Source: Hyaloperonospora brassicae
Lineage: Eukaryota > Oomycota > Peronosporomycetes > Peronosporales > Peronosporaceae
Length of the DNA: 64,000 nucleotides
Direction: 5' to 3'
Assembly (NCBI GenBank): GCA_947650285.1
Contig: CANTFL010000174.1
Coordinates: forward strand, 806,001-870,000
The stretch's first letter is position 1; the number at the start of each line of letters is the position of its first letter. The position numbers and the translations under genes are program-made. The notes beneath the pieces are model-generated. The model had not been told where the DNA came from, searched no databases, and was given only the letters and a program-made list of their open reading frames with translations. Of the stretch, positions 23,740 through 43,290 are shown in pieces.

Positions 23740-24410
23740 CGTGGCGGGAAAGGAGAAAAAAGCACTTTGTTAGTGGCAGAAACTATCGCAGCGAAGATAC
23801 CGTCGCGTAACGTATGTGTAGCCATGTTGGGTTGCCGCACCCTGGCTCAGTCGGTCGTACGACCGCGCAAGGATATATACCCTCCAGTAGCTATACGGTC
23901 GTCCACCGTATAATTCCCCGTCAACGATGTTGCACTGAAGGTGGGGAGCTGCAGATGCAGATACAATTGAAGTATACGTGTGAAGAAACTGCGGCATTGG
24001 TGACCTTCCGTTGAACCTAATGGGACCGGACCTGCATCGTACGAAGCCGACTGATTTGTGGCGAATGCCGATACCGGCAGACGTCATAATGACGCATCGC
24101 TTGTACTGTGCTTGAAGATGTCTATATCCCTCACGTCTTCTCGCGAGGAGACTGGAGCGCACAGAGTGTGTACCTGTCTCTGCTCCAATGTGGTTGGCAA
24201 GGATAGCCAGCAGCACTGTGTGTGCAATTGCGCGTCGAGGTATCTGAGAATCGCTTCTGCACGAGAACCACATACATTGATGCAACGCAGGCTCATCGAA
24301 TATGCAGGTGACTTCGCCGGACACAACACTGACCTTTCCATTCCCAGTATCCACTTTTCTTCCACGCCATCCTATCCGTATCCATTCCCAGTCTGCTTTC
24401 AAGTTAGGGC
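23740..24410. other. intergenic up to retrotransposon E1
   Basis: 671 bp with the DAD4 promoter. A 211-codon - strand frame (23770-24402) shows no motif and is not called. The E1 insertion splits the sequence at 24415. Confidence 0.4.
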
Positions 24411-24415
24411 GTACC

Positions 24416-24805
24416 TGTAACGGGGCAGCCCGTTACATGAAATTGTCACTTTAAGTAAAGTGACAATAAAGAATATAAAGATGGATATTCTTTAAACAAT
24501 ATCACCAAAGTGGTGATATTGAAGGGTCGACCAAAGGGTCTGTTCATTGGTTGATATCGTGATGATATCAACCCACCAATCGCCGCAAGACGCGCGCAAT
24601 GAGTGGTGACGAGACGTCACCATACATGCAGTTATATTAGTATGATTGAATTAAGTCAAACGAAGAGACAGTAGTTTGAAGACTTAATTTATTAATATAA
24701 CAGTTCTACTTTTACCCTACCTACGCTTCCTCGCTCGCCACGTGTACGTCCGTCGGGGCACCCAAATCCCTTGCGTTAAGTTACGCAAGGGTGTGCCCCG
24801 TTACA
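24416..24805 (+). repeat. E1 5' LTR
   Basis: Begins TGTAACGGGG and ends CCCCGTTACA, perfect TG...CA borders. The first 106 bp are four consecutive perfect hairpins with 9-11 bp arms (24416-24437, 24443-24466, 24468-24493, 24497-24521). Confidence 0.95.
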
Positions 24806-24849
24806 CCTGGTAGCACTTTGTAGTCCTTCCAAGGACCACATCATCCAAC

Positions 24850-26004
24850 ATGAACATGTTGGATGAAGAAGACACCTTTCACGCCACGCGTGAAGGGATT
24901 ACCCATTTGAGTGACATCGAATGGGGTGCGGTAGAACGAATGAGTTCTACCGTAGGCGAACTCGTCGTCAGCACCATGTTGGAGTCTCTAGACAGAGACC
25001 AACAACATACAGCTATCGCCAAGTTCATTCACAATGAACTTGCTCTCGAGAGGGAGAAAGTAGCCTTGCTTCACCAGCAAGGCTCTCAACAGGCCGAGCA
25101 GTTGAGAGAACTCGGTGCTCAACAGACGGAGCTGTTGAGACAGCAGCAATTCCATGCTGCTGTGGGCGGGACGGCGCATGCGCGTCGTCCCGAAGTGATG
25201 AAAGTCGACATCTCCAAGTACAGTGGAGTCCCGGAGGACTCCCTGTTACTATGGTTTGTCGAACTCGACAGAGCCCTAAGGGCTCGTCGCGTCGAAGATG
25301 AGCAAATGAAACTCACATTTGCTCAGACCCACTTGGCAGGGCGTGCCAAAACTTGGTCCCTGGGACTCGAGAGTAGCGACCTAAACGTGTTTAGGTCGCT
25401 AGATGACTTCAGGTCCCGGCTCAGACAAACGTTTGAGCCGCCACGTGCTGAGTTCAGGGCTCGTTCAGAGCTCCTGAAACTCAAGCAGGGTAAGCGTGAT
25501 GTGCACGCTTACGCACAACATATACGACTCCTTGCGAGTAGTATAACTGCAAACCCAGTTCATGAACACACGTTGATTACGGTGTTCATGCAAGGGCTCG
25601 CAGAAGGGCCCGTCAGGAGCCACCTGTTCCGCCTTGAGCTGAATACGCTTGAAGAAGCGATATCAGCCGCGGAACAGGAAGACTTTAGCATGAGACAGGC
25701 TCATGCTAGCTCAAACTCTTGCCGTCCACCGAGACGACAAGAGATCGGAGGTCCAGAACCAATGGACCTCTGTTATGTTGAGAGCGAGAGACCTCGCTCT
25801 ACAAGCAACAAGCGATTGCAGAGGTGCAATCGCTGTCAGAAGTTAGGGCACTACGCATACGAGTGTAGTGCTCCACGCCCAGTACCAAACAGTACTGAGC
25901 GAAATGGACGACCTTTAGACAGAAAGGGCAATGGGCGTGGGTCCAGCGCTGTTGCGAAGCCGCAACAGCGAGACGGACCATCAAAAAATGGTCGGGGTCA
26001 GTAG
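24850..26004 (+). CDS. E1 gag polyprotein
   Basis: Nucleocapsid precursor, 384 residues, intact from ATG 24850 to TAG 26002-26004. The middle is a retrotransposon-gag domain (around residues 125-260; LLLWFVELDRAL, LKLKQGKRDVHAYAQ). A CCHC zinc knuckle C-x2-C-x4-H-x4-C (CNRCQKLGHYAYEC) sits at about 326-339, and the C-terminus is Arg/Gly/Lys-rich. The N-terminal Gln-rich region may be coiled coil. gag is not interrupted, unlike pol. Its stop lies inside the stem of the frameshift hairpin. Confidence 0.92.
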   Translation: MNMLDEEDTFHATREGITHLSDIEWGAVERMSSTVGELVVSTMLESLDRDQQHTAIAKFIHNELALEREKVALLHQQGSQQAEQLRELGAQQTELLRQQQFHAAVGGTAHARRPEVMKVDISKYSGVPEDSLLLWFVELDRALRARRVEDEQMKLTFAQTHLAGRAKTWSLGLESSDLNVFRSLDDFRSRLRQTFEPPRAEFRARSELLKLKQGKRDVHAYAQHIRLLASSITANPVHEHTLITVFMQGLAEGPVRSHLFRLELNTLEEAISAAEQEDFSMRQAHASSNSCRPPRRQEIGGPEPMDLCYVESERPRSTSNKRLQRCNRCQKLGHYAYECSAPRPVPNSTERNGRPLDRKGNGRGSSAVAKPQQRDGPSKNGRGQ

Positions 26005-26026
26005 GGGCGGAGCGCCCTACTGATCC
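25983..26026 (+). promoter_or_regulatory. -1 ribosomal frameshift signal joining gag to pol
   Basis: Slippery heptamer A AAA AAT (25983-25989) in the correct gag phase, a 5-8 nt spacer, then a stem TCAGTAGGG (25998-26006) pairing with CCCTACTGA (26015-26023) around an 8-nt loop; three more outer pairs (one wobble) are possible. The pol frame is -1 relative to gag and overlaps the gag end. E2 keeps the same A-run and identical stem with a changed loop. Strongly supported by pattern; untested experimentally. Confidence 0.8.
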
Positions 26027-29000
26027 AGCAACCTCAATAGAATTTGCAAATCTCTTGACGAAAGTTGCTCCAGATACACAATCATTGTGTGTCTCTGCAC
26101 CTGGTGATGACGTTTCGCTCATCACCTTGAAGTTGGAAGCGACAAATGATTTGTCGCTTCGTGCCCTAGTAGACTGTGGGGCGTCGAACAACTTTGTTCG
26201 TCGCCAGTCACTAGAGGGTCGTAGGCTCAAGTTCGTTGAGCGCGACATTCCCCTCACAAGGATGACGGTGCGCCTTGCAACAGGCGCATCGATAACCGTT
26301 GAGAAACGTGTAGTAGGAATCCACTACACGTTAGAGGGCGAGCAGTACGATGATGATTTCATCGTACTAGATCTGGATGACAAACTTGATGTCATCCTGG
26401 GATTACCTTGGCTCAGAAAATACGAGCCAAGGGTGAGCTGGCAGCATCGATCCGTGAAGATGCCTGCTGCTTGTTCATCAGATGGCCATCTGATGAACAT
26501 CTTGGAGCGTCCACAAGCGTGTGGATGTTCTGCGAGTGAGTGCGATGGCCTCACTTGCGGTACGGTCGTTAGCACGACTGCACAAGGTCACAGTGTAGTT
26601 GATCACCACACTGTGGAGCAAGCTCCCGGCGGCTGTACAGAAGTACAGGCTGCGCCGAAGGTCCACCACTCGAACAAGTCGAGTGGACCGGGACATGGAT
26701 GCATACCTAGCGGGCAGCATCTTAGAAGAAAGAAATCTGTTGCCCCCAAGGGGCAACATGAAAATCCTAGGTCGACTGGAGAGTCGACCGTAGAGGATCG
26801 GTTCCTGACTGTGGTTGCACAGCCACAGTCGGAAGACGTCGAGGGAATAAGTCCCCACGTACTTGAGGAAGGAATTCCTCAAGAGTCGCTTGCTGAGGGA
26901 TTAGGCCCTCAGCAACCTGTGGAAGCAAGTTCCCAGGAAGAAACTGAGACGTTGAACGTCTTGGTTAATGACGGATCAAGCGTAGGCGCTTATACGCTTG
27001 ATCTGATTGTGCCTCCGAAGTTGACTTCGGAGATAACTCAGTTGCCAACGCTAGAACCGAAACGGTTCTTGCGTGATCTGCGTAGTGGCAAAGTCAAGCA
27101 GATCTGCATACTCGTCACAGAGGACGAGTATGTGACCGACATTCGGTCGGCAACAGTATTTGCTGAGAACGAACGGGTTATCAGCAGCTCATCGATGGAC
27201 GAAAGTGTCCTCGATGAGAAGACTCGGATTGAGCGATACGCGTCCCAATCCTGGGAGTCACTTCAGGCAAATCCTTTGTATAAGGATTTGATCGAATTCA
27301 GGGATGTGTTCCCTGAATCCGTACCTTGCGAGTTGCCTAAGGACAAAGGCACTCGACACGAGATCGAGCTCAAACCGGGCTCGAAATACTGTGTCATGAA
27401 GCAGTGGCCACTGCCTCGTGAACAAGTGATAGCGATCGACAAGTTCTTTGCCGATCGCTTAGCAGCGGGCCATGTGAGGGAATCAACATCCCCTCACAGC
27501 TCTCCGACCTTCTGTGTGCGAAAGGCCACAGGAGGGTGGCGGATAGTGCACGCTTTCAACAAGTTGAATGCTGCAACGGTACCGGCTCAGACGCCGATAC
27601 CGAGGAAGGACGTAATCATAGATGGTATGTCAAAGAGTACCATCTTTTCGTCCATGGATCTGATGGATGAATTCTATCAGATCATGATGCGTGAACGGGA
27701 CGTCCCGTTCACGGCAGTGAGTACCCCCAGCGGGATGCTGTGGGAGTGGCTAGTGATGCCACAGGGGCTGAGTAATGCCCCTGCAACATTCAACAGATGT
27801 GTAACAAATCTGTTGAGACCGGTGCGAGACTTCGCACCGAGTTACTTCGACGATGTGTTCGTCCATAGCCGGGCTATGGACGGAAGGACGGACGCGGAAG
27901 CTCACAGATGACACGTTCGTCAGCTTCTTCAACTTATGCACAAGCATAAGTTGTACGTAAACCTCAAGAAGTGTATATTCGCGGCTAGCGAAATACCACT
28001 TCTTGGGTGCATCGTGGGGAAACACGGCATACGCCCTGATCCCGAAAAGATCAAGACGATCACCGACTGGCCCGTGCCAGTCGACGTCAAGGGACTGCGG
28101 AAGTTCCTTGGGCTAGCGGCGTACTTGCACAAGTACTAGCGCAAATACGCCGAGATGACTGTGCATATTTCTTGTTTACTCAAGCAAAATGTGAAGTGGT
28201 CATGAAACGATGACTATCAGCGTTCATTTGAAGGTATCAAGCAGATCTTCATGCAATCGCCCATACTGGCGATTGCATATCAGGAAAGGTCATTTCACGT
28301 GGTCTGTGACGGCAGAGATTTTGCGATCGGATGCGCGTTGACGCAATTTGACAGAGATGGCGCGGAGCGCGTCAGCTGCTACCAATCGCGTCAGCTGCAA
28401 GCAGCTGATCGCAATTAACCAGTGCATGACTAGGAACTCCTTGCCATGAAGTACGCACTCGCTAAGTTTCGCGTCTATACCTTGGGAGATATACCGTTTG
28501 TTGTCTACACGGACCATGCGTCACTACACTGGCCGTAAACAGCCCGCACCTCTCGCAAAGAATGGCGAGGTGGCTGTCTTTCTTCGCGGAGTATAACTTC
28601 TCCGTGGAGTATAAACCGGGACGACTCAATGTCGTCGCGGATGCTCTTTCGCGCCGGCCCGATTTCGAGCCGGACGCGCAATCCAACAGTGAGGACAAGC
28701 CCACTATTGCGACACTGTCAGTCAGTGTCCCGTCGTCAAGCTTTACTTGACGACGTACGAAAGGCATACGCGGAAGATAAGGATCTTCTGCGATTGATGG
28801 ATCATCTGGTGAATCCATCCAGTAAATCCATGAGGGATTTACCGGCTTTGTACCGATCCTCGTCGGATCGGTATAGTAACACGCAACGGATTGCTGTACT
28901 ATACAGCTGTTGCCGACGACACGCCTCGTGTCGTCGTACCCGCTCATCATGATTTGCGATTGCGCATCATGTATGAGTGTCACGATGCCCCAACAAGCGG

Positions 29001-30899
29001 CCATCGTGGTAGAGAAAAGACTTACCTCACGGTAAGTCGCGACTTTTACTGGCCCCGCCAGTATCAGTTTGTTCGCAAGTACATACGTGCTTGCGAAGTT
29101 TGTCAACGGGTGAAGCCTAGTCCTTCATCCCGTGCGCCATTGCAGCCTCTGCCTGTTCCGACAGAGTGCTGGCAGTCCGTTTCAATGGACTTCGTCTTCG
29201 GGTTTCCCGAAGACGCTCACAAGAATAATGGTATTCTTGTGTTTGTAGACCGATTCAGCAAGATGGTCCATCTTGCTGCTGTCCCTGAGTCAATCAAGGC
29301 TCAAGGTTGTGCTCGTGTCTTTCTAGACACGGTCTTTAGACTCCACGGGTTACCCCGTGAACTCGTATCCGACCGTGACCCTCGGTTCACGGCGGAATTA
29401 TGGCAAACCGTGTTCCGTACTCTCGGAACACGATTGAAGATGTCCACTTCTGACCATACAGAAACAGATGGTCAGACGGAACGTGCGAACCGTGTCCTCG
29501 AAGAGATTCTTCGAGGATATGTCCACTCGTTTCCGAGTTGGAGCGAATTCCTACCCATGGTGGAATTCGCCATCAATAATTCGGTGCATGCTTAAACACA
29601 GCACACACCGTTTTACGTGAATGGCCTACGCCATCCACGTGTGCCCACCCTTATAGAGTGTGACTCTTGGATAAGGGGGGGAGGGACTCGCTCGAGCAAA
29701 AACCGTTTTGGCTCTTGCTCATCACGTGTCGACGCAAACGTCGTCACGTATGATGCCGATGTCGATCAAGTCGACATCGATGAAGAAGATCATCTCAATA
29801 ATAGCGAAGACGCTATTATTGATTCAGATGATAATGACGATGCTGGTATATTCAGCATCGCCAACGATTATGCCAGCGAGGAAGAAGACAACCTCGCTGA
29901 AGAAGAGAGCAATCTCTTAGCAGTGCGCACGAAGCGCACTGACAGACAAAACAAAGAGTCAGCAGAGAACTTCCTGCTGACTCGAGAAGCGGTAGTCCGT
30001 TTCGTTCAGGACTCCATCGCAAATGCGGTGGACCGTCAGAAACGGAACGCAGACAAGAATGGAAGAGCAAATGTTCTTTCATTTAAGGTTAATGACCTAG
30101 TACTACTGTCAACGGTAAACCTACCTGGACATGCAGTCACTAGTGTCGGCAGTAGTAAACTACTGCCGAAATACATTGGGCCATTTCGAGTGTTGCATCG
30201 CAAGGGCAATGCATACACACTCGAATTGCCACGTAGGATGCGCACGCATCCTACGTTTTACGTGGGGAGGCTTAGGTCGTACTGTCAGTACGAGCCTTCT
30301 TCTTCCGATGAAGATAGCCCCCACGTTCAAGAACATCCATCAAGTTCTTGCGTTCGCGCTCCAGACGATCCGTCTGGTCGCGCAGATATGATACCTCGGT
30401 ATTCAACCGAGTTATCTCTCCGCGAGCTGTCGCCAGCTCGCCGAAAAGGAGCGGACATCCCGCTCGACCTGAAGCTGCGCCGTGGCATAATCGGCGCGAT
30501 CCCTCGCCCGATCAGCCTCGTGACCCTTGCGGTTCTTCCGCACGGTGTCGGTCAAAGCGTAGCGTCGGTCGCGCTCGTGCTTCAAGTCATCGCGCAATTC
30601 ATCGATTGCGCGATCCATCTCGTAAGGATCGAGATGGTGGGCCTGGGGTTCTGGAGGAGGTCTTTCCTCCTCCACCACATCCTTTGGTGGATGCTCACGG
30701 TGATCAACGCTTTCTAGTGGAGCGTATCTTGAATCACCGTGACGATTCAGGATCAAGGACGAGCTACCTCGTCCAGTGGAGGGGGTATCCACCCTCTTGG
30801 AACAGCTGGGAGCCCCGCTCTCAGCTGTTGATGGATGTTGAAGGTCTCGTCCGCCAGTATGACGAGACCCATCCGATGAGTCCTGTGGCCCATCGGTAA
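25990..30899 (+). pseudogene. E1 pol (protease, RT, RNase H, integrase, chromodomain), interrupted
   Basis: The -1 frame is open from the gag overlap to a TGA at 27909-27911 (protease VDCGASNN; RT motifs SSMDLMDEF, PQGLSNAPATF and catalytic YFDDVFVHS). After it the same frame continues with LLGCIVGKHGI, stops at TAG 28137-28139 and again near 28202. In RNase H, TAA and TAG follow in what should be PVHD-ELLAMKYAL, and a frameshift lies near 28540. Integrase (28891-29595) has the HHCC finger, CEVCQRVK, and DFVFGFPED; a TAA interrupts it at 29593. The C-terminal GPY/F region reads LLPKYIGPFRV and a chromodomain (about 30690-30880, YLVQWRGYPPSWNSWEP) is in a shifted frame. The product could not be made as one chain. 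Confidence 0.9.
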
Positions 30900-31869
30900 A
30901 CACGCGTTCGAGGCGCTTGTAGACGGATTGCAAGTTTGCAATCGCGTCACGCATCTCAGCCGAGATGTGTGCCCTTCCCCAGGGCGAATCTAGGGAATAC
31001 ACATCCCTATGTGCACGCTGCGAGTTGTCAACACAACTCGCACAAGGGTCTCCCCATGTGAGGCAAGGAATGCCTGCCTCACTAGATAAACAATGCAACC
31101 GGTACCTAGCACCGGTTGGCGTTCGCCGTTCGAACCTGAGGCGTGTTGCCTCAAGTTTCTTGAGCCAACCCTCTCGTCCAAAATTCTTGACGTTTTGGAC
31201 GAACGCGTTCCACGCAGCCAAAAGCGATGTTTTGTCACGCTTTTGGTTGCTGTTGTACCATCGATGTCTAAGGAAGACATCGAGATAAAAGTCTTCTTCA
31301 GCGCGAAAGTTCTTCGCGCTGGAACTCAAGCCGTGAAGCTCGGTTGCATCGAATAAGGGTATTCGATGGTGTTGGCCTGTCTCGTGAGACAGGCTATTGA
31401 TGAGTTGTTCGGGCAAACGCCACGGCTTCAACTCATCACGCTTCACAGTGGTACCCTTGTCGGTACCACGGCTCCCAGATTGACGACGGCTCGCGCCATC
31501 GTCATCACGCTCGAGCGAATACGCACGAGCCGGAGGTGGTGAAGAATAGAACTCACCACCCTGATCATCGTCATCACTGCCGAACATACTGTGATGCGAA
31601 TCACGAGTCCGTTCGTTCGGCAGTGGCCTTGGCGAATACTGAGGCGTCGCCGGTGAGCGAGACGCCTCTGGAGCATTGCCCGAGTCAGACACGTCTGACT
31701 CGCCAGAGTAGATGACCTCCACATCGGGGTCATCGTGCGCACGCGGCGTGGTACCGCGTGCACCTGCAGCACCTGTTGCTGCAGGCGAAGAAGGGGCGGC
31801 AGACGACGAAGCGTCTGCCGCAGAGGCTTGCACAGCACCAGGCTGTGTGGGTCTTGAGTCACCTCGCAT
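30412..31869 (-). CDS. E1 antisense ORF, unknown function
   Basis: 485 codons uninterrupted from ATG 31869 to TAA 30412, antisense to the pol 3' end (overlapping the chromodomain) and to the pol-LTR spacer. I recognise no domain. N-terminal about 150 residues are Ser/Pro/Asp-rich and low complexity; the middle (roughly 160-300) looks folded, with RIPLFDATELHG, VFLRHRWYNSNQ and SREAG/SSEAGIPCL-type blocks; the C-terminus is a charged coiled coil (ERDRRYALTDTVRKN). E2 contains a diverged homologue in the matching antisense position, in which these blocks are kept at protein level, which argues that the frame is coding. Plant Ty3/Gypsy elements such as RIRE2 and Grande carry unrelated antisense genes in the same place. 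Confidence 0.7.
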   Translation of the reverse strand: MRGDSRPTQPGAVQASAADASSSAAPSSPAATGAAGARGTTPRAHDDPDVEVIYSGESDVSDSGNAPEASRSPATPQYSPRPLPNERTRDSHHSMFGSDDDDQGGEFYSSPPPARAYSLERDDDGASRRQSGSRGTDKGTTVKRDELKPWRLPEQLINSLSHETGQHHRIPLFDATELHGLSSSAKNFRAEEDFYLDVFLRHRWYNSNQKRDKTSLLAAWNAFVQNVKNFGREGWLKKLEATRLRFERRTPTGARYRLHCLSSEAGIPCLTWGDPCASCVDNSQRAHRDVYSLDSPWGRAHISAEMRDAIANLQSVYKRLERVFTDGPQDSSDGSRHTGGRDLQHPSTAESGAPSCSKRVDTPSTGRGSSSLILNRHGDSRYAPLESVDHREHPPKDVVEEERPPPEPQAHHLDPYEMDRAIDELRDDLKHERDRRYALTDTVRKNRKGHEADRARDRADYATAQLQVERDVRSFSASWRQLAER

Positions 31870-32004
31870 AGAGATGTTAACTATGCGAGGTCAAGCGGAA
31901 AGTGAGTGGAACGGACCAAACAAGTGCTCCCTGTCCCAATGGTGGCCAACGGGTGGCCTCCATATTTCGATAGTCACACGGTGACTATCAGTTAAGGGGG
32001 GTGA

Positions 32005-32395
32005 TGTAACGGGGCAGCCCGTTACATGAAATTGTCACTTTAAGGAAAGTGACAATAAAGAATATAAAGATGGATATTCTTTAAACAATATCACCAAAGT
32101 GGTGATATTGAAAGGTCGACCAAAGGGTCTGTTCATTGGTTGATATCGTGATGATATCAACCCACCAATCGCCGCAAGACGCGCGCAATGAGTGGTGACG
32201 AGACGTCACCATACATGCAGTTATATTAGTATGATTGAATTAAGTCAAACGAAGAGACAGTAGTTTAAAAGACTTAATTTATTAATATAACAGCTCTACT
32301 TTTACCCTACCTACGCTTCCTCGCTCGCCACGTGTACGTCCGTCGGGGCACCCAAATCCCTTGCGTTAAGTTACGCAAGGGTGTGCCCCGTTACA
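32005..32395 (+). repeat. E1 3' LTR
   Basis: 391 bp, about five differences from the 5' LTR (four substitutions and one inserted A). Same TG...CA borders and hairpin series. Confidence 0.95.
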
Positions 32396-32400
32396 GTACC

Positions 32401-33293
32401 TCACACCTGGTCGCTACTTAACTCTCAAGCCCATCTGGAGGTACCGAAGATCCTCTTCGTCAGCTGTATGATCTCGACCGGAGCTGGCACAATTTGCAAA
32501 CTCTGCATCCATTGGTTCCTTGTACGTGATGTTGCACATTTCGACAGTAGTCATAGACAATGAGCGGCCCAGTCTGGACATCGTCATAAGTCTCTCCCGA
32601 CTTCTCCGCCGTCAACGGTTTGTAGCAGCACCACCACCAATAACTTCATTCGTAGTACCTTCGTTCCTATCATCATACTAAAAGGCTCCATCTGCTTGAG
32701 CTGATTGCACAAGTCGAGGCTTATGACGACACGGCGCAGTGTGATCGCAAACTGGCGCGTGACAGTACTGCTGCATACAATACGCGATCCATTGTGACGG
32801 GGTAGCTAAACACTTCCACAGACACACACGTGTCACGTCTCCTGGTCACAGCGGCGACCTTGCTACCAGGTGTGTCCACCGACATCTCGTTGACCTCACC
32901 ATTGTTATGCCATTTGCTAAAGGTATCACGAGCTCAGCGCTCTATCAGGCGTTTTGCGCATTGCGTCAGCGTCCGAGGTAGCACTTCGGGAAAGAGGCTC
33001 ATGTGCAGAGCACAGTTAATGTCTGATGTATAGCTCCTTTGCGAAAGTCATTCAACATTACACGAAGCGCGTGTTGTAGCGTAGCACCCTGGCGATTACC
33101 GGAAGAAGTGCGGCACACAATGAGAGCACGCAGCGAAAGAGAATGCCATTCAGCCATGTCCTGGACCGCTCCTGCTGCAACAAACCTCATCAGCGGCTTC
33201 GTTGCTTGTGTCGCTGGGAACGACGCTGACGAGCCTGGGAGGTCATTTGTGATGACATTCAGCAGCCCCGCACAACTGGTGCTTCACCGTTGG
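32401..33293. other. spacer between E1 and E2
   Basis: 893 bp of non-element sequence. Short coding-like pieces exist on both strands (for example + strand LELIAQVEAYDDTAQC near 32700 and - strand AGAVQDMAEWHSLSLRAL near 33150), but none forms a gene I can assign; probably host gene debris between insertions. Confidence 0.35.
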
Positions 33294-33737
33294 TGTAATG
33301 GGGGCACGCCTTGCGTCAATTTAACACAAGGTTGTGTGCACCCAACGTCACGTACACGTGGCGGTAGGAAGCGCAACCAAAGCAAACAGAACCCGAAAGC
33401 TCGTTCTGAAGAAAAAGTAAAACTGTTGTTTAATATAGTTAAGTTTCTTCCCAAATTATCTTTCGCCTCAATCTAACTATATTAAACTACCATCTCCTAT
33501 GTGGGTCTTTTGCTCACCACCCATTGCGCGTGTCCAGCAGCGATTGGCGGTTAAATTGGTTGATGTACCGTGTACGTCAACCAAGAAGTGTAGACCGCAC
33601 GGATATTACCCTTGAAGGCAATATTCCGACAACATCAGTCTTCTCAAGTGATGTTTTTTGAACATTATCAAAAATAGATAACGTCCAAAAATTGATACGA
33701 AAGCATCAACTTTTATGTAACGGGGTAGCCCGTTGCA
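33294..33737 (-). repeat. E2 3' LTR (left in window)
   Basis: 444 bp, starts TGTAATGGGGG and ends CCCGTTGCA on the + strand. Aligns with 40978-41419 and with the solo LTR at 43291. Confidence 0.85.
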
Positions 33738-33989
33738 TCACTCCACCCTTGACCGTCAGTCACTATAGTGACTGATATGATTGATTGGTGAAGGAGTGAC
33801 CACCGACGTGTTGATCTGGGGACGGGGAGCACTTGTTCGTCTTTTCCTGCTCATTTTGACTTTTCAGCGCATGACGAGTCTGTCCATGCGCTGCGCGAAC
33901 AAGGCCGCGTTTGAAGAGGCTGCACGAATGAGTGCAGCCGGAGAATAAGCTGTCCAAGACTCAGCAGCAGGCGATAATACGCCTGCAAC

Positions 33990-35533
33990 ACTCATAGTTA
34001 CATCTGCACGTGGTCAACGACTTGCAGCTTCGGCTGCGGGTGGTAGTCCCGTGGACCATGGTCCCGATATAGAGGTGCTCTATTCGGGCGAGTTGGATCC
34101 CCCGTCCGACTCGAAGCCGTACGCAAAGCCCGACCGTACGCTTGCTGAAAAGATGACTGCCGCGCCTCGCCCCAGTGTCGATCCTGACTTGCGCCATGAG
34201 ATGTTCGGTTCATCCGACGAATCTAAGAACTCGTCGTCGGGATCGAACCGATCGTGCTCGTATGCGTAAGAGGCGAGTGCAAAACATGAGGACTTACGTC
34301 CTCATGAGGATGTCGATGAGTATTCACGGATTCATTGTAGCCATAGCCGCAGCAATACTACGTATTGCGACGATCGAGGTGCCAATTCTTATGCTGGTAC
34401 CACGCAAGAGGAGCAGGATCGTAATGCGTTACGACTTGCTCCTGAGATCAAACCATGGATTCCTGCCTACCTTGAGCGAGCTGAGAGAGTGGTATGGATA
34501 TACCACTGGGAGTTGTCGAATTCCACTCTTTAACTCGTCAAGGATCCATGGTATTAATTCCAGTGCGATAAATTATCGAACTGAGCATGATTTTCACATC
34601 GATGTCTTTTTCAGACATCGATGGTACCACGGCAAACACAACCGAGACGAGATCTAGTTGGCGCAGGCGTGTAATTCGTTCATCATCAACATCGAGAATG
34701 TTGGCCGCAAGACTTGGCGGGACAAACTTGATGTTGCTCACAACAGGTTTGAACAGAAGTCGCAAACCGATGCTCGGAACAAATTGCACCGGTTGTCTCG
34801 AGAGGCAGGTTTACCTTGCCTCTCGTGGTGAGAGAAGTGTATGAGTTGAGCTGACAACTCTGTTAGCGCCCCTAGGGAGACATACCTCCCTAATCAACCC
34901 TACTGGAGGGCGCACATCTCGTCCGAGATGCACCAAGGGATTAAGACTATACAATCCTATTACGAACGCGCCGGTCGTTCGTACGACGATGGCCCTCCAT
35001 CAAAGGGTGCGTCTCGTCGTATTGTTCGATGAGACCGGGCAAACCCATCATCAGCTGGGAGCGGGGCTCCTAGCTGTTTCACGAGGGTGGGTACCCCCGC
35101 CGCTGGACGAGGTAACTAGTCCTTGATCCTAAATCGTCATGGTGGTACAAGATACGGCTCACAAGGAAGCGTTGACCACTGTGTGAGTCCATTAAAAGAT
35201 GTGGAGGAGAAGGAAACCCCTCTTCCAGGTCGTTTGGCCCACTATCTCGACCCACACGAGATGGATCGCGCAATTGTTAAATCGTGCGAGGATTTGGATT
35301 ACGAGAGGGACAGGCGCTATGCTCTGACCGATTCTGTGCGGAAGCAACGCAATTATCGCTAGGATGATCGGGCGAAAGATCGTACCGATTACGCCCTCGC
35401 ACAACTTCAGGTCAAGCGCGATGTTCGCTCCCTTGTTGACGAGCTGGGGACAGCTCGCAGAGAGATCTTTCACTTGAAAATGAGAGATCTCTTCCCTACG
35501 CGCCCAGACTGATCGTCTGGAGTGCAAGCGCAA
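33990..35533 (+). pseudogene. E2 antisense-ORF remnant
   Basis: Homologue of the E1 antisense ORF, on the strand opposite E2 pol. Matching pieces in order: PDIEVLYSGELD, HEMFGSSDES, IPLFNSSRIHGI, FFRHRWYHG, REAGLPCLSW, LDPHEMDRAI, ERDRRYALTDSVRKQ and AQLQVKRDVRSL. Frames change between pieces and stops are present, so it is dead, but the protein-level conservation outside the chromodomain overlap supports coding function in the ancestor. Confidence 0.7.
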
Positions 35534-35598
35534 GAGTCAGATGGAGGTTCTTGAACGTTGGGTCTATCTTCATCGTCGGAATAGGGCTCGTACTGGCA

Positions 35599-38500
35599 TC
35601 ACGGGCGGAGACGCCCCACGTGAATCGTAGGATGTGTACGCATACTACGCGGCAGTTTGATCGTGTATGCGTTGCCTTGTCGGCGCAGCACACGAAAGGG
35701 GCCTATGTACTTGGGTAGTAGTTTACTGCTGCTCACCTTAGTCATGACGTGTCTAGGTAGGTTTACCGTTGATAGTAGGACTAAGTCACCTTCAATAAGT
35801 GAAAGAACACTTGCTCTTCCATTCTGGTCAGCGTTCCGTTTCTGTCGGCCCACCGCGTGAGCGATGTAGTCCTGCACGAAACGGACAACTGCTTCTCGAG
35901 CCAGCAGAAATTCTTCTGCTGAATGGAAAGTGCTTTGTTCAGTTCGCCTTGCGCGAACTGCAGAAAGAGTCCTTTCTTATTTGTGTTCATCTGCGAGGGT
36001 GTCATCATCCTCGCTGGAATAGTCGTTGGCGATGCTGAAGATACCAGCATCGTCATCATCATCTGACTTAATAATAGCGTCGTCGCTATTATTGTGGTGA
36101 TTATCTTCTTTCAAGTCGACCTGATAAACATTGTCATCATACGTGACAGCGTTAGCGTCGACACGTGATGAGCAAGATCCAGAACATTTTTTACTCGATC
36201 GAGTCCCTCCCCCTCTTATCCAAGAGTCACACTCTAATAGGGTGGGCAGACGTGGATAGCGTAAGACATTCACGTAGAACGGTGTGTGCTGCGTTAAGCA
36301 TGTACCAAATATGATAGCGAATTCCAACATGGGTAGGAATTCGCTCCAACTAGAGAACGAGTGGACGTATCCTTGAAGTATGTCTTCGAGGATACGTTTT
36401 GCACGTTCCGTCTGACCATCTGTTTCGGGATAGTCAGATGTTGACATCTTCAAACGCGTTCCGAGCTATCGGAACACGGATTGCCAAAACCCTGCAGTGA
36501 TCCGAGGTTAACATTCGGACACGAGCTCACGAGTTAATTCGTGAAGTCGAAACATCTTATCGATAACGACACGAGAACAGCCCTGTGTCATGATCGACTC
36601 GGGTACTGCAGCAAGATGCACCATCTTGCTGAACTGGTCAACGAACACAAGAATACTATTATTCTTGTGAGTGTCTTCGGGTTTCCCGAAGATGAAGTCC
36701 ATGGAAAGAGACTGCCAGCACTCTGCCGGGACCGGTAGAGGCTGTAATGGTGCACGGGATGAGGGACTATACTTCACCCGTTGACAAACCTCGCAAGCAC
36801 GAATGTACTTGCGCAAAAACTGATACCGGCGAGGCCAGCAAAAGGCAAGGCTTACCGTAAGATACGTCATTTCCCGAGTATGATGACCACCTATTGCGGC
36901 ATTGTGACACTTATATATGATGCGCAAGCGCAAATTGTTATGAGCGGGGACGACGACACGGGTCGTGTTTTTTTCGACGACGGCTGTATAATATAGCAAC
37001 CCGTTGCGTGTTGTTTACCGATCTGATGAGTATCAGTACAAAGCCGGTAAATCTTTCAAAGATTTACGAGATCGATTCACCAGATGATCCATCAATCGCA
37101 GAATATCTTTATCTTCTGCGTAGGCCTTTATTACTTCGTCAAGAAAGGATGAAGACGGTACACTGACCGTAAGTGTGGCAACAGTGGGACTAACATCACT
37201 GTTGGATTGCGCACCCGGCTCTAAATCGGGCCGGAGCGAGAGCGCATCAACGACGATGTTGATTTGTCCTGGTATATACTCGACGGAGAAGTTATACTCC
37301 GCGAAGAAAGACAGCCACCTCGCCATTCTTTGCGAGAGGTGCGGGCTGTTTACGGCCAGTGTAGTGACGCATGGTCCGTGTAGACAACAAACGGTATATC
37401 TCCCAAGGTATAGACGCGAAACTTAGCGAGTGCGTACTTCATGGCAAGTAGTTCCTAGTCATGCACTGGTTAATTGCGATCAGCTGCTTGCAGCTGACGC
37501 GATTGGTAGCAGCTGACGCGCTCCGCACCATCTCTGTCAAATTGCGTCAACGCGCATCCGATCGCAAAATCTCTGCCGTCACAGACCACGTGAAATGACC
37601 TTTCCTGATATGCAATCGCCAGTATGGGCGATTGCATGAAGATCTGCTTGATACCTTCAAATGAACGCTGATAGTCATCGTTTCATGACCACTTCACATT
37701 TTGCTTGAGTAAACAAGAAATATGCACAGTCATCTCGGCGTATTTGCGCTAGTACTTGTGCAAGTACGCCGCTAGCCCAAGGAACTTCCGCAGTCCCTTG
37801 ACGTCGACTGGCACGGGCCAGTCGGTGATCGTCTTGATCTTTTCGGGATCAGGGCGTATGCCGTGTTTCCCCACGATGCACCCAAGAAGTGGTATTTCGC
37901 TAGCCGCGAATATACACTTCTTGAGGTTTACGTACAACTTATGCTTGTGCATAAGTTGAAGAAGCTGACGAACGTGTCATCTGTGAGCTTCCGCGTCCGT
38001 CCTTCCGTCCATAGACCGGCTATGGACGGACACATCGTTGAAGTAACTCGGTGCCAAATCCCGCACCGGTCTCAACATATTTGTGACACATCTGTTGAAT
38101 GTTGCAGGGGCGTTACTCATCCCCTGTTGCATCACTAGTCACTTCCACAACATACCGCTGGGGGTGCTCACTTCTGTGTACGGTATGTACTGTTCACGCA
38201 TCAGGATCTGATAGAATCCATCCATAAGATCCATGGACGAGAAGATGGTACTCTTTGACATACCATCTATGATTACGTCCTTCCTCGGTATCGGCGTCTG
38301 AGCCGGTACCGTTGCAGCATTCAACTTGTTGAAAGCGTGCACTATCCGCCACCCTCCTGTGGCCTTTCGCACACAGAAGGTCGGAGAGCTGTGAGGGGAT
38401 GTTGATTCCCTCACATGGCCCGCTGCTAAGCGATCGGCAAAGAACTTGTCGATCGCTATCACTTGTTCACGAGGCAGTGGCCACTGCTTCATGACACAGT

Positions 38501-40927
38501 ATTTCGAGCCCGGTTTGAGCTCGATCTCGTGTCGAGTGCCTTTGTCCTTAGGCAACTCGCAAGGTACGGATTCAGGAAATACGTCCTTGAATTCGATCAA
38601 ATCCTCATACAAAGGATTTGCCTAGAGTGACTCCCAGGATTGAGACGTGTATCGCTCAATCTGAGTCTTCCCATCGAGGACGCTTTCGTTTATCGATAAG
38701 CTGCTGAGAACCAGTTCGTTCTTAGCAAATACTGTCGCCGACCAAAATTTCGCCCACATACCCATCCTCTGTGACGAGTATGCAGATCTGCTTGACTTTT
38801 ACACTACGACGATCACGTAAGAATCGTTTCAGTTCTAGCGTTGGCAACTGAGTTATCTCCAAAGTTAACTTCGGAGGCAAAATCAGATCAAGCGTATAAG
38901 CGCCTACACTTGATCCGTCATTGACCAAGACGTTCAACGTCTCGGTTTCTTCCTGGTAACTTTCTTCCACAGGTTGCTGAGGGCCTAATCCCTCAGCAAG
39001 CGACTCTTGAGGAATTCCTTCCTCAAGTACGTGGGGACTTATTCCCTCGACGTCTTCCGACTGTGGCTGTGAAACCTCAGTCAGGGTCTGCTCCTCTACG
39101 GTCGATTATTCAGCCGACCTAGGATGACCGTGTTTACCTTTGGTGGCAACAGGTTTCTTTTTTCTTGGATGGTGCTCGCTAGGCATAAATCCATGTCCCG
39201 GTCCACTCGACTTATTTCAGTGGTGGACCTTCGGCGCTGCCTGTACTTCTGTACAGCCACCGGGAGCTTGCTCCACAGTGTAGTGGTCAACTACACTGAG
39301 GTATTGTGCAGTCGTGCTAACGACCGTACCGCAAGTGAGCCCATCGTACTCACTCGCAGTACATCCACACGCATGTGGACGCTTCATGTCGTTCATCAGA
39401 TGGCCATCTGATGAACAAGCAGCATTCATCTTCACGTAACGATGATGTCAGCTTACTCTTGGATCGTACCTTCTGAGCCATTAAAATCCCTGGATGACAT
39501 CAAGTTTGTCATCCAGATACAGTACGATGAAGTCATCATCGTACTGTTCGACCTCTAACGTGTAATGGATTCCCACTACACCTTTCTTAACGGTAATCGA
39601 TGCGCCTGTTGCAAGGCGCACCTTCATCCTCGTGAGGGGGATATTGCGCTCAACGAACTTGAGCCTACGACACTCTAGTGACTGGCGACGAACGATTGTG
39701 TATCTGGAGCAACTTTCGTCAAGAGATTTGCAAATTCTCTTGAGATTGCTGGATCAGTAGGGCGCTTTGCCCCTACTGACCCCGACCATTTTTTTATGGT
39801 TTGCTTCGCTGTTGCAGTTTCGTAACAGCGTTGGACCTACGCCCATTGACGTGTTTGTCAAATGACCGATCATCTTGATCAGTACTGCTCGGTACTGGGC
39901 GTGGGGCACTACACTCGTAAGCGTAGTGTCCCAGGTCATGACAGCTATTGCACTTTTGCAATCGCTTGTTGTTCGTAGAGCGAGGTCTCTCGATTTCAAC
40001 ATAACAGAGGTCCATGGGTTCTGGACGTCCAGTCTCTTGTCGTCTCGGTGGACGATAAGGGATCGAGCTAGCATGAGCCAGTCTCATGCTAAAGTCTTCC
40101 TGTTCCGCAGCTGCGATTGCTTGTTCGAGCGTATCCAGCTCTAAACGGAACAGGTGGTTCTAGACGGGTGCGTCTGAGAGGCCTTGCACGAACGCAGTGA
40201 TCAACGTGTGTTCGTGTACTGGATTAGTAGTTATGATACTCGAGAGGAGTCGCATATACTGAGCATAAGCGTGCACATCATGCTTACCCTGCTTGAGTTT
40301 CAGGAGCTCTGATCGAGCCCTCAAATCAGCCCGTGGAGGTTCAAATGTTTGTTTGAGACGGGTTCTAAAGGGTCCGAGCGACTCAAAAGCGTATGGGTCG
40401 CTCATCTCCAGCCCTAAGGCCCGAGTCTTGGTACGTCCCGCCAAATGGTATTGAGAAAATGTGAGTTTCATTTGCTCATCTTCGATGCGACGTAACTTAA
40501 TGGCTCTGTCTAATTCGACGAACCATAACAGCAGGGAGTCTTCCTTGACTCGTCTGTACTTGGAGTTGACAACCTTCAAGATTTCGGAACGACGCGTGTG
40601 TGTCGTCCCGCCCACAGCAGCATTGGATTGCTGCTGTCTCAACAGCTCTGTCTGTTGAGCACCTAGTTCTCTCAACTCGTGACCTGTTGAGAGCCATGAT
40701 GGTGAAGCAAGGCTACCTTTCTCTCTTTCGGCGACAAGTTCATTTTGAATGAATCTGGCTATAGCTGTATGTTGTTGGTCCCTGTAAAGGGACTCCAACA
40801 TGACGCTAATGGCGGTTTCGCCGATGGTAGCACTCATCCGTTTTACCGCCCTCCATTCGATGTCACTAAAATTGCCAAAGCCTTCACGCGTGGCGTGAAA
40901 GCTCTCCTCCTCATCCAACATGTTCAT
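35599..40927 (-). pseudogene. E2 gag-pol remnant
   Basis: gag starts at ATG 40927 (MNMLDEEE, as in E1), is broken near 40160, and keeps a zinc knuckle (CNSCHDLGHYAYEC near 39950). Protease is degraded. RT/RNase H run 37280-38612 with TAG, TGA, TAA and TAG at the same sites as E1; the catalytic box near 38030 reads FND instead of FDD. Integrase 36508-36999 has CEVCQRVK and a frame change; the GPY/F region lies at about 35660-35877. Heavily mutated outside the E1-identical tract. Confidence 0.85.
39754..39795 (-). promoter_or_regulatory. E2 copy of the -1 frameshift signal
   Basis: On the - strand: run of seven A then T, the same GGTCGGGG spacer, and the identical 9-bp stem; only loop bases differ from E1 (GCAAAGCG versus GCGGAGCG). 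A C-to-A change just before the heptamer creates a TAA in the gag frame, so the site is no longer usable here. Confidence 0.7.
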
Positions 40928-40977
40928 GTCGGATGTGGTGGTTATGGTCGCTGGACGGACTACAAAGGGCTGTCAGG

Positions 40978-41419
40978 TGTAACGGGCACGCCTTGTGTCA
41001 ATTCAACACAAGGTTGCGTGCACCCGACGTCGCGACACGTGGCGAGGAAGCGCAGCGAAGTAGGCAGAACTCGAAAGCTCTGTATGAGGGAAGAGTAGAA
41101 CTGTATTATTGTAGTTAAGACTTCCTAATAAACCATCTTTATCTTTACCTAACTATATTAAACTACCATCTCCTATGTGGGTCTTTTGCTCACCACCCCT
41201 TGCGCTCTTCCAGCAGCGATTTGTGGTTAATCTGGTTGATGTACCGTGAACATCAACCATCAGGTCGAGCAACCCATCAAAAAAATATTACCCTCGGAAG
41301 TAATATTCATCTAAATTTAACCCTAAAGAGCAATGTCAATTGAACATCATCTAAATGGATAATGTTCAAAAATTGATACAAAGAAATCAATTTTTATGTA
41401 ACGGGCTCACTTCATTACA
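40978..41419 (-). repeat. E2 5' LTR (right in window)
   Basis: 442 bp, TGTAACGGGC to TTCATTACA on the + strand. Includes perfect hairpins, for example CCTTGTGT/ACACAAGG at 40991-41013. Confidence 0.85.
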
Positions 41420-41603
41420 TACAAAAAGTCAGATCGACATCCACTCGGGCATATTGACGTCATTTCGACGCACTTTTGACGCGTCGTAGCAGGCACCTGA
41501 ATCTCGCAAAAGCAGAAGCTACAATCGAGACGACGGTCAAGAGATGACTGGTCCAGCGTTGACACCGTCCTGCGATTCATCCCGACTCGCATAGATCCTT
41601 CCG

Positions 41604-42581
41604 TCACGTCGGGCTCGAAGCCGCAACTCCGGGCTTAAGTTGCGGCTGAGCCACGCCACGAGACTGAGCATAGTTGAGGAATTGTTCCTTTGTCACTGTA
41701 TCCATTTCAACGAGCAAAAGCCACCACGATTCACCAACGGAAAGCGCAAGCTTCGAGCCCTCCTCTCGCAACAGCTTGACGTAGCGAAGCCATTGCACCG
41801 CCGAATGTTTCACCCCTACAAGCGATATCTTCAGGTTAATGTTCAACATCTTGGCGACTTTCTTCGGCTGCCACCCCAACGCCTTCCACTTCATAGCCAT
41901 CAGCATACCGGAAGCGTCGTCGTCCGGCTTATACAAGAGCTCTTCGGCAACTTTGTTGTACATGAACGCGACCATTGCGCGATGGTCTTCCTCGTAGACG
42001 TATCCGAGCGATGTGAGTCGCTCGAACACCGTTTCTGCTGGCTGCCCTTCCTTAAACGCCTGGTATACGGCGTGTAGGGTAAATAGCCCACCAGATTCTT
42101 TTCGATACCAGCTAACATGCTTCATCCATGTCTGGAGGTGTGCAGGGCTGACTTACCCATTACCATCGATGCCGATTGCTCGAGCAGCCTGAAGGGGTGT
42201 AACCTCCTGCATTTGCCACGACTCGAGAAGGCGTTCGATTGCGAAAGACTGGTCAGACCACCAGCCCGAAAGGCCCTTATACACCCGTTCTAGTGTCTTT
42301 GACAAAGGCGCAGACCCCACTCGCTCTTCCCTGTTGCGGTCAGACCGCGACAACGACGAGTCATTCGACTGCAAATTTTGACCGGAAGTCGATGCGATTT
42401 GGTCCATAGCTGTGCTATAAGACCGCAAAAGACATGGCGAGTCTGACGGATTGTCATCAGGGCGGGACATATTCCCCGCGCTGTGCGTCGCAACAGCCGA
42501 TTGATGGCCGTCGCGAATTGATAGGGTACTTCCACTGGAAAGGGTGCCGGACGCCACGAGCAGAAAGCAGAGATTACGCAT
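41604..42581 (-). pseudogene. RxLR-like secreted effector with in-frame stop
   Basis: ATG at 42581 starts a hydrophobic signal peptide (MRNLCFLLVASGTLSSG). A degenerate RxLR motif, CLLR, is at residues 50-53 and EER at 85-87 (NREER), the usual spacing. A WY-type helical segment follows (GWWSDQSFAIERLL). A TAA replaces codon 143 (42153-42155). The same frame then continues for 182 more codons with further Trp/Leu-rich helices (WMKHVSWY, MKWKALGW, WLRYVKLL) to TGA 41604-41606. A 25-nt GTAAGT...CCAG stretch spans the stop but is far too short to be an intron and would shift the frame. Either a pseudogene or a truncated allele. Such proteins act inside plant host cells; target unknown. Confidence 0.75.
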
Positions 42582-43290
42582 GTTACTCACTAGTCGGGTG
42601 ATTGATAACCAGTAAATTTGAACATTGAGAAAGGGAGTTCGTGCTTTTGATTGACAACAGTGAGTAAACGATCCACATGAGCCTAATCATAGACGCGGGA
42701 TTGGGTCTCGACTTTTTTGTGCGGGGTGTAGAAACGCACCAGACAGTCACGACTATAGAAATGTGCACCGCAAGATATGAATGTAAAATAATGAGCCACA
42801 TGATATGCAAGAAAAATAATAAACCTTTGATGTATACGACCGTATGGGTGGATATTTACAAGCTTGGGATCGTTCATGAATTTGTACGTATATTTTATCC
42901 AATTTCTCTCTTTTCTCAATGTTAGAAATTGCTCATTTGCATCGGTCGACAGGCGCTTTACGTGAGCGAAAAGGCGGGTTGACATTGCAGTGCGATCTGA
43001 AAGTGTTGTCAGCCATTCGATCGGTTGTATAACCACGTACCTGCTGCTTCTCTTTTGTCCAGATCTTTCTGCTTTGGTATTGTCGCAATGTGCAGCCATC
43101 GTCTTATTGGTGTGGTGTCCTTTAAAGTGAGACATCGCCGTGTCAAATGGTACGCAGGCGTTGATGTGATAAAGGTCCATGGAACGACATAAGGCAGCGT
43201 AGGACGACGAATCGAAAATCATCAACAAGAGGCGACTAGAAAGTGAAAAGCTGACATAATTATTTTGGCACTGTTGCAGATAGTCGCCCA
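42582..43290. other. effector upstream region with an unassigned - strand frame
   Basis: A frame of about 200 codons (42683-43303, - strand) reads through to the solo LTR and contains IQPIEWLTTLSDR and LRKERNWIKYTYKF; no family recognised. The solo LTR cuts its 5' side, so it may be a disrupted gene or transposon remnant. Confidence 0.4.

Follow-up and report, generated by a model that had tools for sequence, protein, structure and literature searches.

Short perfect hairpins run the length of a chromodomain Ty3/Gypsy retrotransposon of Hyaloperonospora brassicae and may be held by selection on single-strand folding

Some positive-strand RNA viruses have genome-wide ordered RNA structure (GORS). 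As in E1, the retrotransposon described here, their folding exceeds that of shuffled controls from end to end, in coding regions as well. Both E1 and F2, a second family of the same genome, have computed folding energies below those of shuffled sequence along their length. In its order gag-PR-RT-RNaseH-INT-SH3-chromodomain, E1 resembles the Ty3/Gypsy chromodomain elements (chromoviruses), in which we know of no hairpin loading. Like E1, Chronos is described as an oomycete Ty3/Gypsy element with a chromodomain (PMC5348765).

The window analysed here is a 64,000-nt stretch of Hyaloperonospora brassicae DNA (GCA_947650285.1, contig CANTFL010000174.1, positions 806,001-870,000, forward strand), and the DNA evidence on the hairpin trait comes from this single genome. 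E1 (24416-32395) is an LTR retrotransposon of the Ty3/Gypsy type that carries a chromodomain. An LTR pair, a target-site duplication (5-bp GTACC at 24411-24415 and 32396-32400) and the order PR-RT-RNaseH-INT are all present, and its closest solved-structure match is Ty3 Gag-Pol. The 5' LTR (24416-24805; plus strand, like all following features unless stated) opens with a terminal hairpin, TGTAACGGG-gcag-CCCGTTACA, and aligns to the 3' LTR (32005-32395) in two ungapped pieces of 96% and 99% identity. Judged by position, TGGTAGCACTTTGTAG (24808-24823) is a candidate primer-binding site, with TGGTAGCACTTAGTAG at the same place in F2, and AAGGGGGGTGA (31994-32004), directly 5' of the 3' LTR, is a candidate polypurine tract. 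The gag ORF (24850-26004, 384 aa) matches Retrotrans_gag, and its zinc knuckle scores under the Pfam cut-off. The protease-reverse transcriptase ORF (26055-27911, 618 aa in the E1 copy; RVP_2, RVT_1) is followed by the integrase part (28891-29595; Integrase_H2C2, rve) and a Tf2-1-like SH3 domain found by Pfam (30094-30282). In F2 and the E1 copy L011, a Ty3-type RNase H lies between RT and integrase, PF17917 and PF17919 overlapping at one place. The chromodomain (PF00385, 30714-30866) lies 3' of integrase, with E = 6.3e-14 in E1 and 6.1e-9 in F2, and on this ground both families are chromovirus-like. On the minus strand, hairpins run through an antisense ORF without a Pfam match (30412-31869, 485 aa in E1), whose stop-to-stop frame of 491-540 codons is kept in all nine full copies examined. 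No structured RNA family of Rfam reaches its gathering score within 24000-33000.

Hairpins were counted as a disjoint set of perfect inverted repeats with arms of at least 7 bp and loops of 1-20 nt. E1 holds 129 of them, roughly fifteenfold the 8.3 ± 1.8 of 20 dinucleotide shuffles; the counts are 105 versus 2.2 for arms of at least 8 bp, and 38 versus 0.15 for arms of at least 10 bp. They are found in the LTRs and in coding and non-coding parts, and the longest, a loop-free perfect 28-bp palindrome with 14-bp arms, lies inside PR-RT (26472-26499). Synonymous-codon shuffling (200 shuffles per coding part, arms of at least 7 bp) gave 1.9 hairpins for gag (maximum 6), 2.9 for PR-RT (maximum 7) and 0.95 for INT (maximum 5), versus 20, 33 and 13 observed. 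An earlier note, made from the sequence alone, had stated that this density is beyond chance in coding DNA and absent from the neighbouring host genes. The first claim is upheld by both kinds of shuffle, and the second by the rest of the window, which is at baseline as a whole, with TRAPPC8 and COPA left unseparated within it: outside E1 and its neighbour E2, 45.5 kb hold 18 hairpins with arms of at least 8 bp, while E1 alone holds 105. The note's "about fifteen" in 24880-25500 agrees with 16 disjoint hairpins at arms of at least 6 bp (11 at 7 or more). The seven hairpins that it quoted all lie where it placed them, with arms of 12, 12, 10, 10, 11, 10 and 9 bp; the first had been given as 11 and can be lengthened to 13 bp at 25374-25401. 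Its picture of an element built almost wholly of hairpins was overstated, as arms of at least 7 bp make up 30% of E1, and 3363 of its 7980 nt lie in arms or loops. As means of 120-nt windows with one mononucleotide shuffle each, the computed folding energy of E1 is -46.8 versus -31.2 kcal/mol shuffled, that of F2 -39.5 versus -34.3, a modest excess, and that of a host gene -34.1 versus -34.8. The antisense strand folds as well as the sense strand. A repeated inserted palindromic element was rejected, since the arms differ in sequence.

The trait extends beyond E1. Eight further full copies carry 102-114 hairpins with arms of at least 8 bp per fetched stretch. E2 (33301-41259, minus strand) is an older relative in reverse orientation with 82-85% nucleotide identity to E1 across two main aligned blocks; most E1 hairpins are still in place there, in part decayed, and its density is 3-7 per kb (arms of at least 8 bp). 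F2 is a second intact hairpin-rich family, whose RT is 58% identical to that of E1. Three Gypsy loci of the same genome (~50% RT identity) lack hairpin loading, as do ten copia loci. According to the RT tree, the trait may have arisen once with loss or arisen twice. In that tree L020 sits on a very long branch and L025 covers only 38% of the columns; both were scored as lacking the trait on little data. Searches of viral and genome contigs for DNA of relatives in other genomes returned none and left the trait traced in this one genome. Among the 120 of 370 protein matches listed, oomycetes account for nearly all of those with a named organism, and one carries the label Nitrospira MAG.

Most hairpin positions differ between E1 and F2, and the mean hairpin stabilities are alike, -12.03 and -11.83 kcal/mol with RNA parameters. 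The arms average 8.77 nt and 55% GC in E1, and 8.02 nt and 65% GC in F2. Chance hairpins average -8.6 kcal/mol. In E1 arm length falls with GC (rho -0.46, versus -0.03 in chance hairpins), a relation that F2 does not show (rho -0.08). Pairing beside an outer seed does not exceed chance for D ≤4 and again past D of ~28 in E1 and ~25 in F2. Given an outer seed, pairs closing a loop shorter than 4 nt occur at chance level, and the spacing between arms ranges from 0 to beyond 20 nt, so a folding strand fits better than double-stranded DNA palindromes serving a dimeric protein; the inner-seed profile is uninformative on such palindromes, as its seeds contain these same pairs. Loops that appear to be 0 or 2 nt long number 14 of 34 in E1 and 5 of 22 in F2, where 25% is expected with a free centre, and the excess in E1 counts against the folding-strand reading. 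On the sense strand, loops favour A over T (z 2.1 in E1, 1.9 in F2 and 0.6 in L043). The 5' arms of F2 are biased, with G as the outer base in 43 of 76 and a purine as the innermost base in 54 of 76.

Six relatives with 80-93% identity carry 69 compensatory pairs in E1 hairpins, versus 17.6 by permutation, although ~5 of the 69 are counted twice where both E1 LTRs align to one LTR, a flaw shared by the null. In each of the six, the true register exceeds all six slid registers. At least two Watson-Crick states occur at 65 of 1146 pairs (~4 being LTR doubles). A 13-bp-arm hairpin in gag (25374-25401) has one or two compensatory pairs in four relatives; its pair 25382/25393 is C.A in nine sequences, C-G in four and T-A in E1. 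Arms are better conserved than loops (.907 vs.807 in L017,.896 vs.795 in E2), a comparison that, like the compensatory counts, is biased toward E1-like pairing by the definition of the hairpins on E1. Among nine close copies, shared variants occupy 17 of 2161 arm sites versus 113 of 5796 elsewhere (p=1.4e-4), and private variants 109 versus 401 (odds ratio 0.71). The depletion is stronger in shared than in private variants (heterogeneity z -2.07) and thus increases with age, the pattern expected of purging.

Selection for the fold is better supported than a copying process because of the compensatory changes, the equal mean stability and the depletion of shared variants in arms. We give an even chance to the reading that the whole sequence of the E1 lineage is held by purifying selection as independent short stem-loops. 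The selection would act during the copying cycle on a unit of ~8-9 Watson-Crick pairs with a loop of mostly 4 nt or more, a span of up to ~24-28 nt and ~-12 kcal/mol. Its object would be a single strand folding on itself, that is, the genomic RNA, the first-strand cDNA or both. In terms of benefit, much of this strand might be locked in local hairpins of about small-RNA size; TE siRNAs in Phytophthora are reported as 25/26 nt (PMC3804510). A locked strand would be hard for small RNAs to reach and would anneal poorly with other copies, and no duplex would ever reach the length needed by Dicer. This pay-off is a hypothesis. Several points weigh against selection: each of ~2000 paired sites would need to have an effect, the overall depletion of private variants in arms is also what a mutational bias would produce, both strands fold equally well, and F2 lacks the relation of arm length to GC and has a modest folding excess. 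A bolder version, an element-wide "hairpin code" with a set-point of ~-12 kcal/mol and spans near the ~21-26 nt of oomycete small RNAs, giving passive silencing evasion on both strands, appears somewhat unlikely. Under it, coding and non-coding sequence alike would be held to the set-point, which would leave little unstructured target on either strand and every stem too short for Dicer.

The mismatches bear on which strand is selected. E1 stems show no clear preference for G.U over A.C: fixed mismatches are GT 17/AC 12 at 8 or more pairs, 8/11 at 9 or more and 5/5 at 10 or more, intermediates of compensatory change are 15/15, and shared variants among the nine copies are 2/9. In F2, one-mismatch stems of at least 8 pairs give GT 7/AC 1 (six distinct, one LTR hairpin being counted twice), which would fit RNA, and helix ends give 7/12. 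In structural RNA genes, G-U pairs are reported in 78.5% of two-step compensations (PMC8794818), and the absence of a clear preference is unusual for selection on RNA. Therefore, the selected strand may be RNA or first-strand cDNA, and the compact RNA fold proposed in the earlier note is supported in part.

A mutational ratchet, in which mutation in a single-stranded intermediate is faster at unpaired than at paired bases and sites drift into pairing and then freeze, would need no benefit. Loops are indeed the most variable (shared variants per site.0274, versus.0185 in the rest and.0079 in arms), the unclear preference for G.U agrees with it, and it would naturally yield both a minimal loop and a threshold of stability. 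By our estimate, a per-base bias of ~1.7-fold is arithmetically enough for the hairpin counts. However, coding private variants are equally common in arms (58/1044) and in the rest (128/2351), the stronger depletion of shared variants is as expected for purging, and the ratchet must also beat protein constraint. We regard it as unlikely.

Template switching, in which nascent cDNA folds back as its own template and perfects and re-perfects inverted repeats, has been described as a source of perfect hairpins (PMC8794818). It would account for perfect Watson-Crick stems without a clear G.U preference, short loops with a limited span, hairpins in every region and compensatory changes. Pair orientation in F2 leans with the same-strand rule given in that source (TA 118 > AT 98, GC 201 > CG 191); E1 follows it for GC 335 > CG 299 and contradicts it for TA 248 < AT 289. 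The process predicts matched double changes, yet the nine copies contain no matched double Watson-Crick change beside 126 one-sided arm variants, where our rate-based estimate gives ~11 for the case that correction had removed the missing shared arm variants. Among 209 hairpins of relatives aligned to E1, eight show at least three broken pairs in E1, and in just two of the 209, both within these eight (L024, L017), are all changes confined to one arm. Nor does copying predict that GC-rich arms are shorter, as they are in E1 (not in F2). The copying process that the earlier note had offered as its other cause is thus disfavoured, and we consider it quite unlikely.

Dispersed packaging or assembly signals, with Gag bound to stem-loops along the whole RNA, would explain many dispersed stem-loops of like size and stability, and RNA viruses have been proposed to use multiple such signals (PMC6281560). 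The loops share no strong motif, though, AAG being the commonest loop trinucleotide (11 in E1, 5 in F2). Hairpin spacing in E1 is less even than random placing gives (cv.667 vs.573), and in F2 it is only a little more even (cv.653 vs.760, matched by 7% of random placings). All this makes the explanation very unlikely. Nothing was found in favour of chance, sequence composition, codon bias or an artefact of assembly, and these can practically be dismissed, as the shuffles fall far below the E1 count, the nine full copies are spread over eight contigs and other families of the genome are at baseline.

If selection on single-strand folding can shape every ~60 nt of an 8-kb element, its coding sequence included, structure constrains transposon evolution far beyond what is assumed, and the families would be a natural test of structure against silencing or of its guidance of reverse transcription. 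A mutational cause would instead make the families a clear example of hairpins being written into a genome by a copying cycle. As the earlier note had supposed, no earlier description of hairpin-loaded LTR retrotransposons was found among the titles and abstract openings listed, and the literature matches listed hold no description of passive sequence-wide silencing evasion by transposons.

Compared with known systems, E1 stands apart from each. Unlike it, three other Gypsy loci of the genome are without hairpin loading. Chronos is described with a second, plant-like RNase H (PMC5348765), which Pfam (E ≤ 0.001) did not find in F2 or in the E1 copy L011. Template-switch hairpins as described in PMC8794818 share perfect stems, compensatory changes and short loops with E1, but E1 shows no simultaneous two-arm change in nine close copies and its arm length depends on GC. 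In contrast to GORS, finally, E1 has no clear G.U preference, and it is an LTR retrotransposon with short, span-limited, almost wholly Watson-Crick local hairpins.

The perfect inverted repeats of E1, the Ty3/Gypsy LTR retrotransposon at 24416-32395 (gag, protease, RT, integrase, Tf2-1-like SH3 and chromodomain), were counted as disjoint hairpins with loops of 1-20 nt. With arms of at least 7 bp they number 129, against 8.3 in 20 shuffles, and with arms of at least 10 bp 38 against 0.15, which bears out the dense hairpins described in the earlier note. The excess persists against synonymous shuffles that keep the protein (gag, 20 versus 1.9; PR-RT, 33 versus 2.9; INT, 13 versus 0.95). The seven hairpins cited there are exact or nearly exact, and the rest of the window indeed lacks the excess, with 18 hairpins (arm at least 8 bp) in the 45.5 kb outside E1 and E2. 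To call E1 hairpin-built "almost wholly" was excessive, as the arms make up 30% of it.

Eight other full E1 copies carry 102-114 hairpins (arm at least 8 bp) per 9.8-9.9-kb stretch, and the dense 33-41 kb part of the window is E2, a reverse-oriented E1 relative. In twelve other 10-kb stretches, picked by coordinate mostly from E1-LTR-bearing contigs and not by hairpin content, 227 hairpins lie in 30.7 kb related to E1, F2 or the locus L043, against 63 in 89.3 kb elsewhere. F2, a second family (C605:108740-116426; LTRs 99.7% identical), is hairpin-dense end to end, LTRs included; its single open frame of 1795 codons has 49 hairpins (arm at least 7 bp) versus 6.6 in 100 synonymous shuffles. At arms of at least 8 bp, a further F2 copy (L046, 99.6% identical) has 23 in 3.1 kb, and L043 is intermediate with 15 in 4 kb. 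Three Gypsy loci with RT ~50% identical to E1 (L040, L044 and L045) have one hairpin each at this threshold in 4-5 kb, and 7, 1 and 3 at arms of at least 7 bp; in ten copia loci the density is 0.3-1.3 per kb. Because these loci are low, the trait is a property of some Gypsy lineages in this genome and is not genome-wide. In the RT tree, the E1 relatives and F2 with L043 lie on branches apart from L040, L044 and L045, compatible with one or two origins.

E1 is flanked by a 5-bp target-site duplication, GTACC, and its LTRs of 390-391 nt are 96% and 99% identical in two ungapped pieces. The LTR has at least 44 matches in the 100.6-Mb assembly, at least 41 of them at 98-100% across almost the full LTR, both lower bounds with 40 of 2593 candidates scored. 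The full copy L011 encodes PR-RT-RNaseH-INT-SH3 in a single frame, and its top solved-structure match is Ty3 Gag-Pol. An antisense ORF of 485 aa (30412-31869, minus strand) gave no match in a Pfam search; in 9/9 E1 copies examined an antisense frame runs for 491-540 codons between stops, and E2 has a frame resembling it, judged by eye, at 34175-34657 (plus strand). At L014 (9256-9901; C853), a full E1 copy is followed by a third LTR and internal sequence, as if tandem copies had one LTR in common. In L022 the LTR matches the E1 3' LTR at 84% identity, yet a 6.5-kb alignment is at 93%, and L028 is 73% identical to E1 in gag and 90% in RT; such mosaics would point to recombination between subfamilies. 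A Pythium oligandrum protein (P0009) matches 54% of the E1 PR-RT ORF (26055-27911) at 80% identity, which may reflect horizontal transfer or slow evolution; a Peronospora matthiolae protein is equally close (80% over 72%). Elsewhere in the window, the host gene TRAPPC8 (49083-53390) is 77% identical to that of P. matthiolae and 65-72% to those of other downy mildews and Phytophthora among matches near the top of the list, which very probably places the host among the Peronosporales oomycetes. E2-type LTR pieces are repeated at 40983-41259 and 43297-43574, and the minus-strand ORFs between them (41604-42125 and 42153-42590) have no Pfam match; 40983-43574 may represent a host gene trapped by the flanking LTR pieces. 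A minus-strand ORF at 45777-46190 has a SWIM zinc finger (PF04434), its neighbours at 46194-46610 and 47280-47864 are without Pfam match, and we take the SWIM ORF region to be perhaps a decayed MULE-type DNA transposon.

Most E1 hairpins are kept in place in six relatives of 80-93% identity. Matched two-sided changes in these number 69, against 17.6 expected by permutation; about 5 of the 69 are double-counted where both E1 LTRs map to one LTR, an effect the permutation shares. Observed and expected values are 17 and 3.2 for L017, 12 and 3.5 for E2, 17 and 3.3 for L028, 16 and 5.7 for L021, 2 and 0.6 for L022, and 5 and 1.3 for L024, the last two being inside the permutation range when taken singly. 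Two or more Watson-Crick states occur at 65 of 1146 pairs (~4 LTR doubles among them). Between E1 and F2 (55.6% nucleotide identity), 4 of 50 hairpins are co-located within 1.5 nt, with 1.2 expected. Since close relatives keep positions and E1 and F2 mostly differ, single hairpins persist at moderate divergence and are replaced in the long term, while density is maintained. Among nine full E1 copies, with gapped columns dropped, shared variants occupy 17/2161 arm sites, 18/657 loop sites and 95/5139 other sites, and private variants number 109, 60 and 341 in the same classes. Arms are depleted of both (odds ratio 0.40, p=1.4e-4, shared; 0.71, p=0.002, private), in small numbers and with all copies from one genome. 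Within coding parts, private variants show no arm depletion (58/1044 in arms versus 128/2351 in the rest), and the shared ones are not significant alone (7/1044 versus 37/2673, p=0.09). In arms, shared variants are more strongly depleted than private ones (z -2.07), as expected under purging, and codon positions 1-2 against 3 behave likewise.

What the hairpins bring to their carrier may be approached from their size. The longest perfect arm in E1 and F2 is at most 14 bp, and Dicer needs a longer duplex. The hairpin span limit (~24-28 in E1, ~22-25 in F2) is near Phytophthora small-RNA sizes; one study gives chiefly 25/26 nt for TE small RNAs and 21 nt for those from inverted repeats (PMC3804510). 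Span and arm length together would make evasion of silencing a fair hypothesis. It is also possible that the hairpins pay through packaging, through protection of first-strand cDNA, or through avoided annealing between copies.

Hairpins with arms of at least 7 bp and loops of 3-12 nt have equal mean stability in E1 (-12.03 kcal/mol, sd 2.7, n=105) and F2 (-11.83, sd 2.8, n=62), despite longer, less GC-rich arms in E1. Higher GC goes with shorter arms in E1 (rho -0.46), against rho -0.03 (n=697) and a mean of -8.6 among hairpins that random sequence (1.5 Mb) yields by chance; in F2 alone the two are uncorrelated (rho -0.08), which weakens the argument for constant stability. DNA parameters give the same pattern (E1 -8.05, F2 -7.87), and therefore energy cannot separate RNA from DNA. 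In structural RNA, G.U is the intermediate in 78.5% of two-step changes, according to PMC8794818. In E1, G.T and A.C are about equally common: as intermediates there are 15 and 15, at pairs with one Watson-Crick state and mismatches in at least two sequences 27 and 33, among shared variants of the nine copies 2 and 9, among fixed mismatches 17/12, 8/11 or 5/5 by threshold, and at helix ends 25 and 19. One-mismatch stems of F2 (G.T 7, A.C 1; six distinct) would fit RNA, and its helix ends have G.T 7 and A.C 12. Sense-strand loops favor A over T (z 2.1 in E1, 1.9 in F2, 0.6 in L043). This hints weakly at a strand preference and would agree with loops that are A-rich in RNA or T-rich in minus-strand cDNA. 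At arm ends, the outer base of F2 5' arms (L039, L041 and L042) is G in 43/76 and the innermost a purine in 54/76, with a pyrimidine-rich middle; E1 is less biased (outer C-G 50, G-C 36).

A less likely origin of the hairpins is copying, one arm being corrected from the other. In relatives' hairpins aligned to E1, at least three pairs are broken in E1 at 8/209, and all changes are one-armed in 2 of these 8; among the nine copies, such correction is estimated to leave ~11 pairs with two Watson-Crick states, and none was found; these counts are low, and a single genome supplied every copy.

Where an outer seed is present (its outermost pair having D 19-24, with D the distance that separates two paired bases), bases pair at the chance level for D up to 4 (loop up to 3 nt), increasingly often from D=5, and again at the chance level past ~28 in E1 and ~25 in F2. 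This is the profile that a self-folding single strand gives, although loops of 0 or 2 nt run counter to a free centre (14/34 in E1, 5/22 in F2; a quarter expected). A double-stranded palindrome site would have no reason to spare the centre, yet short-D pairing is at chance. We found no earlier description of a hairpin-loaded LTR retrotransposon in the literature searched. The nearest known kind is the pervasive RNA structure of RNA viruses, to which E1 and F2 are likened, RNA being here only a candidate for the selected strand.
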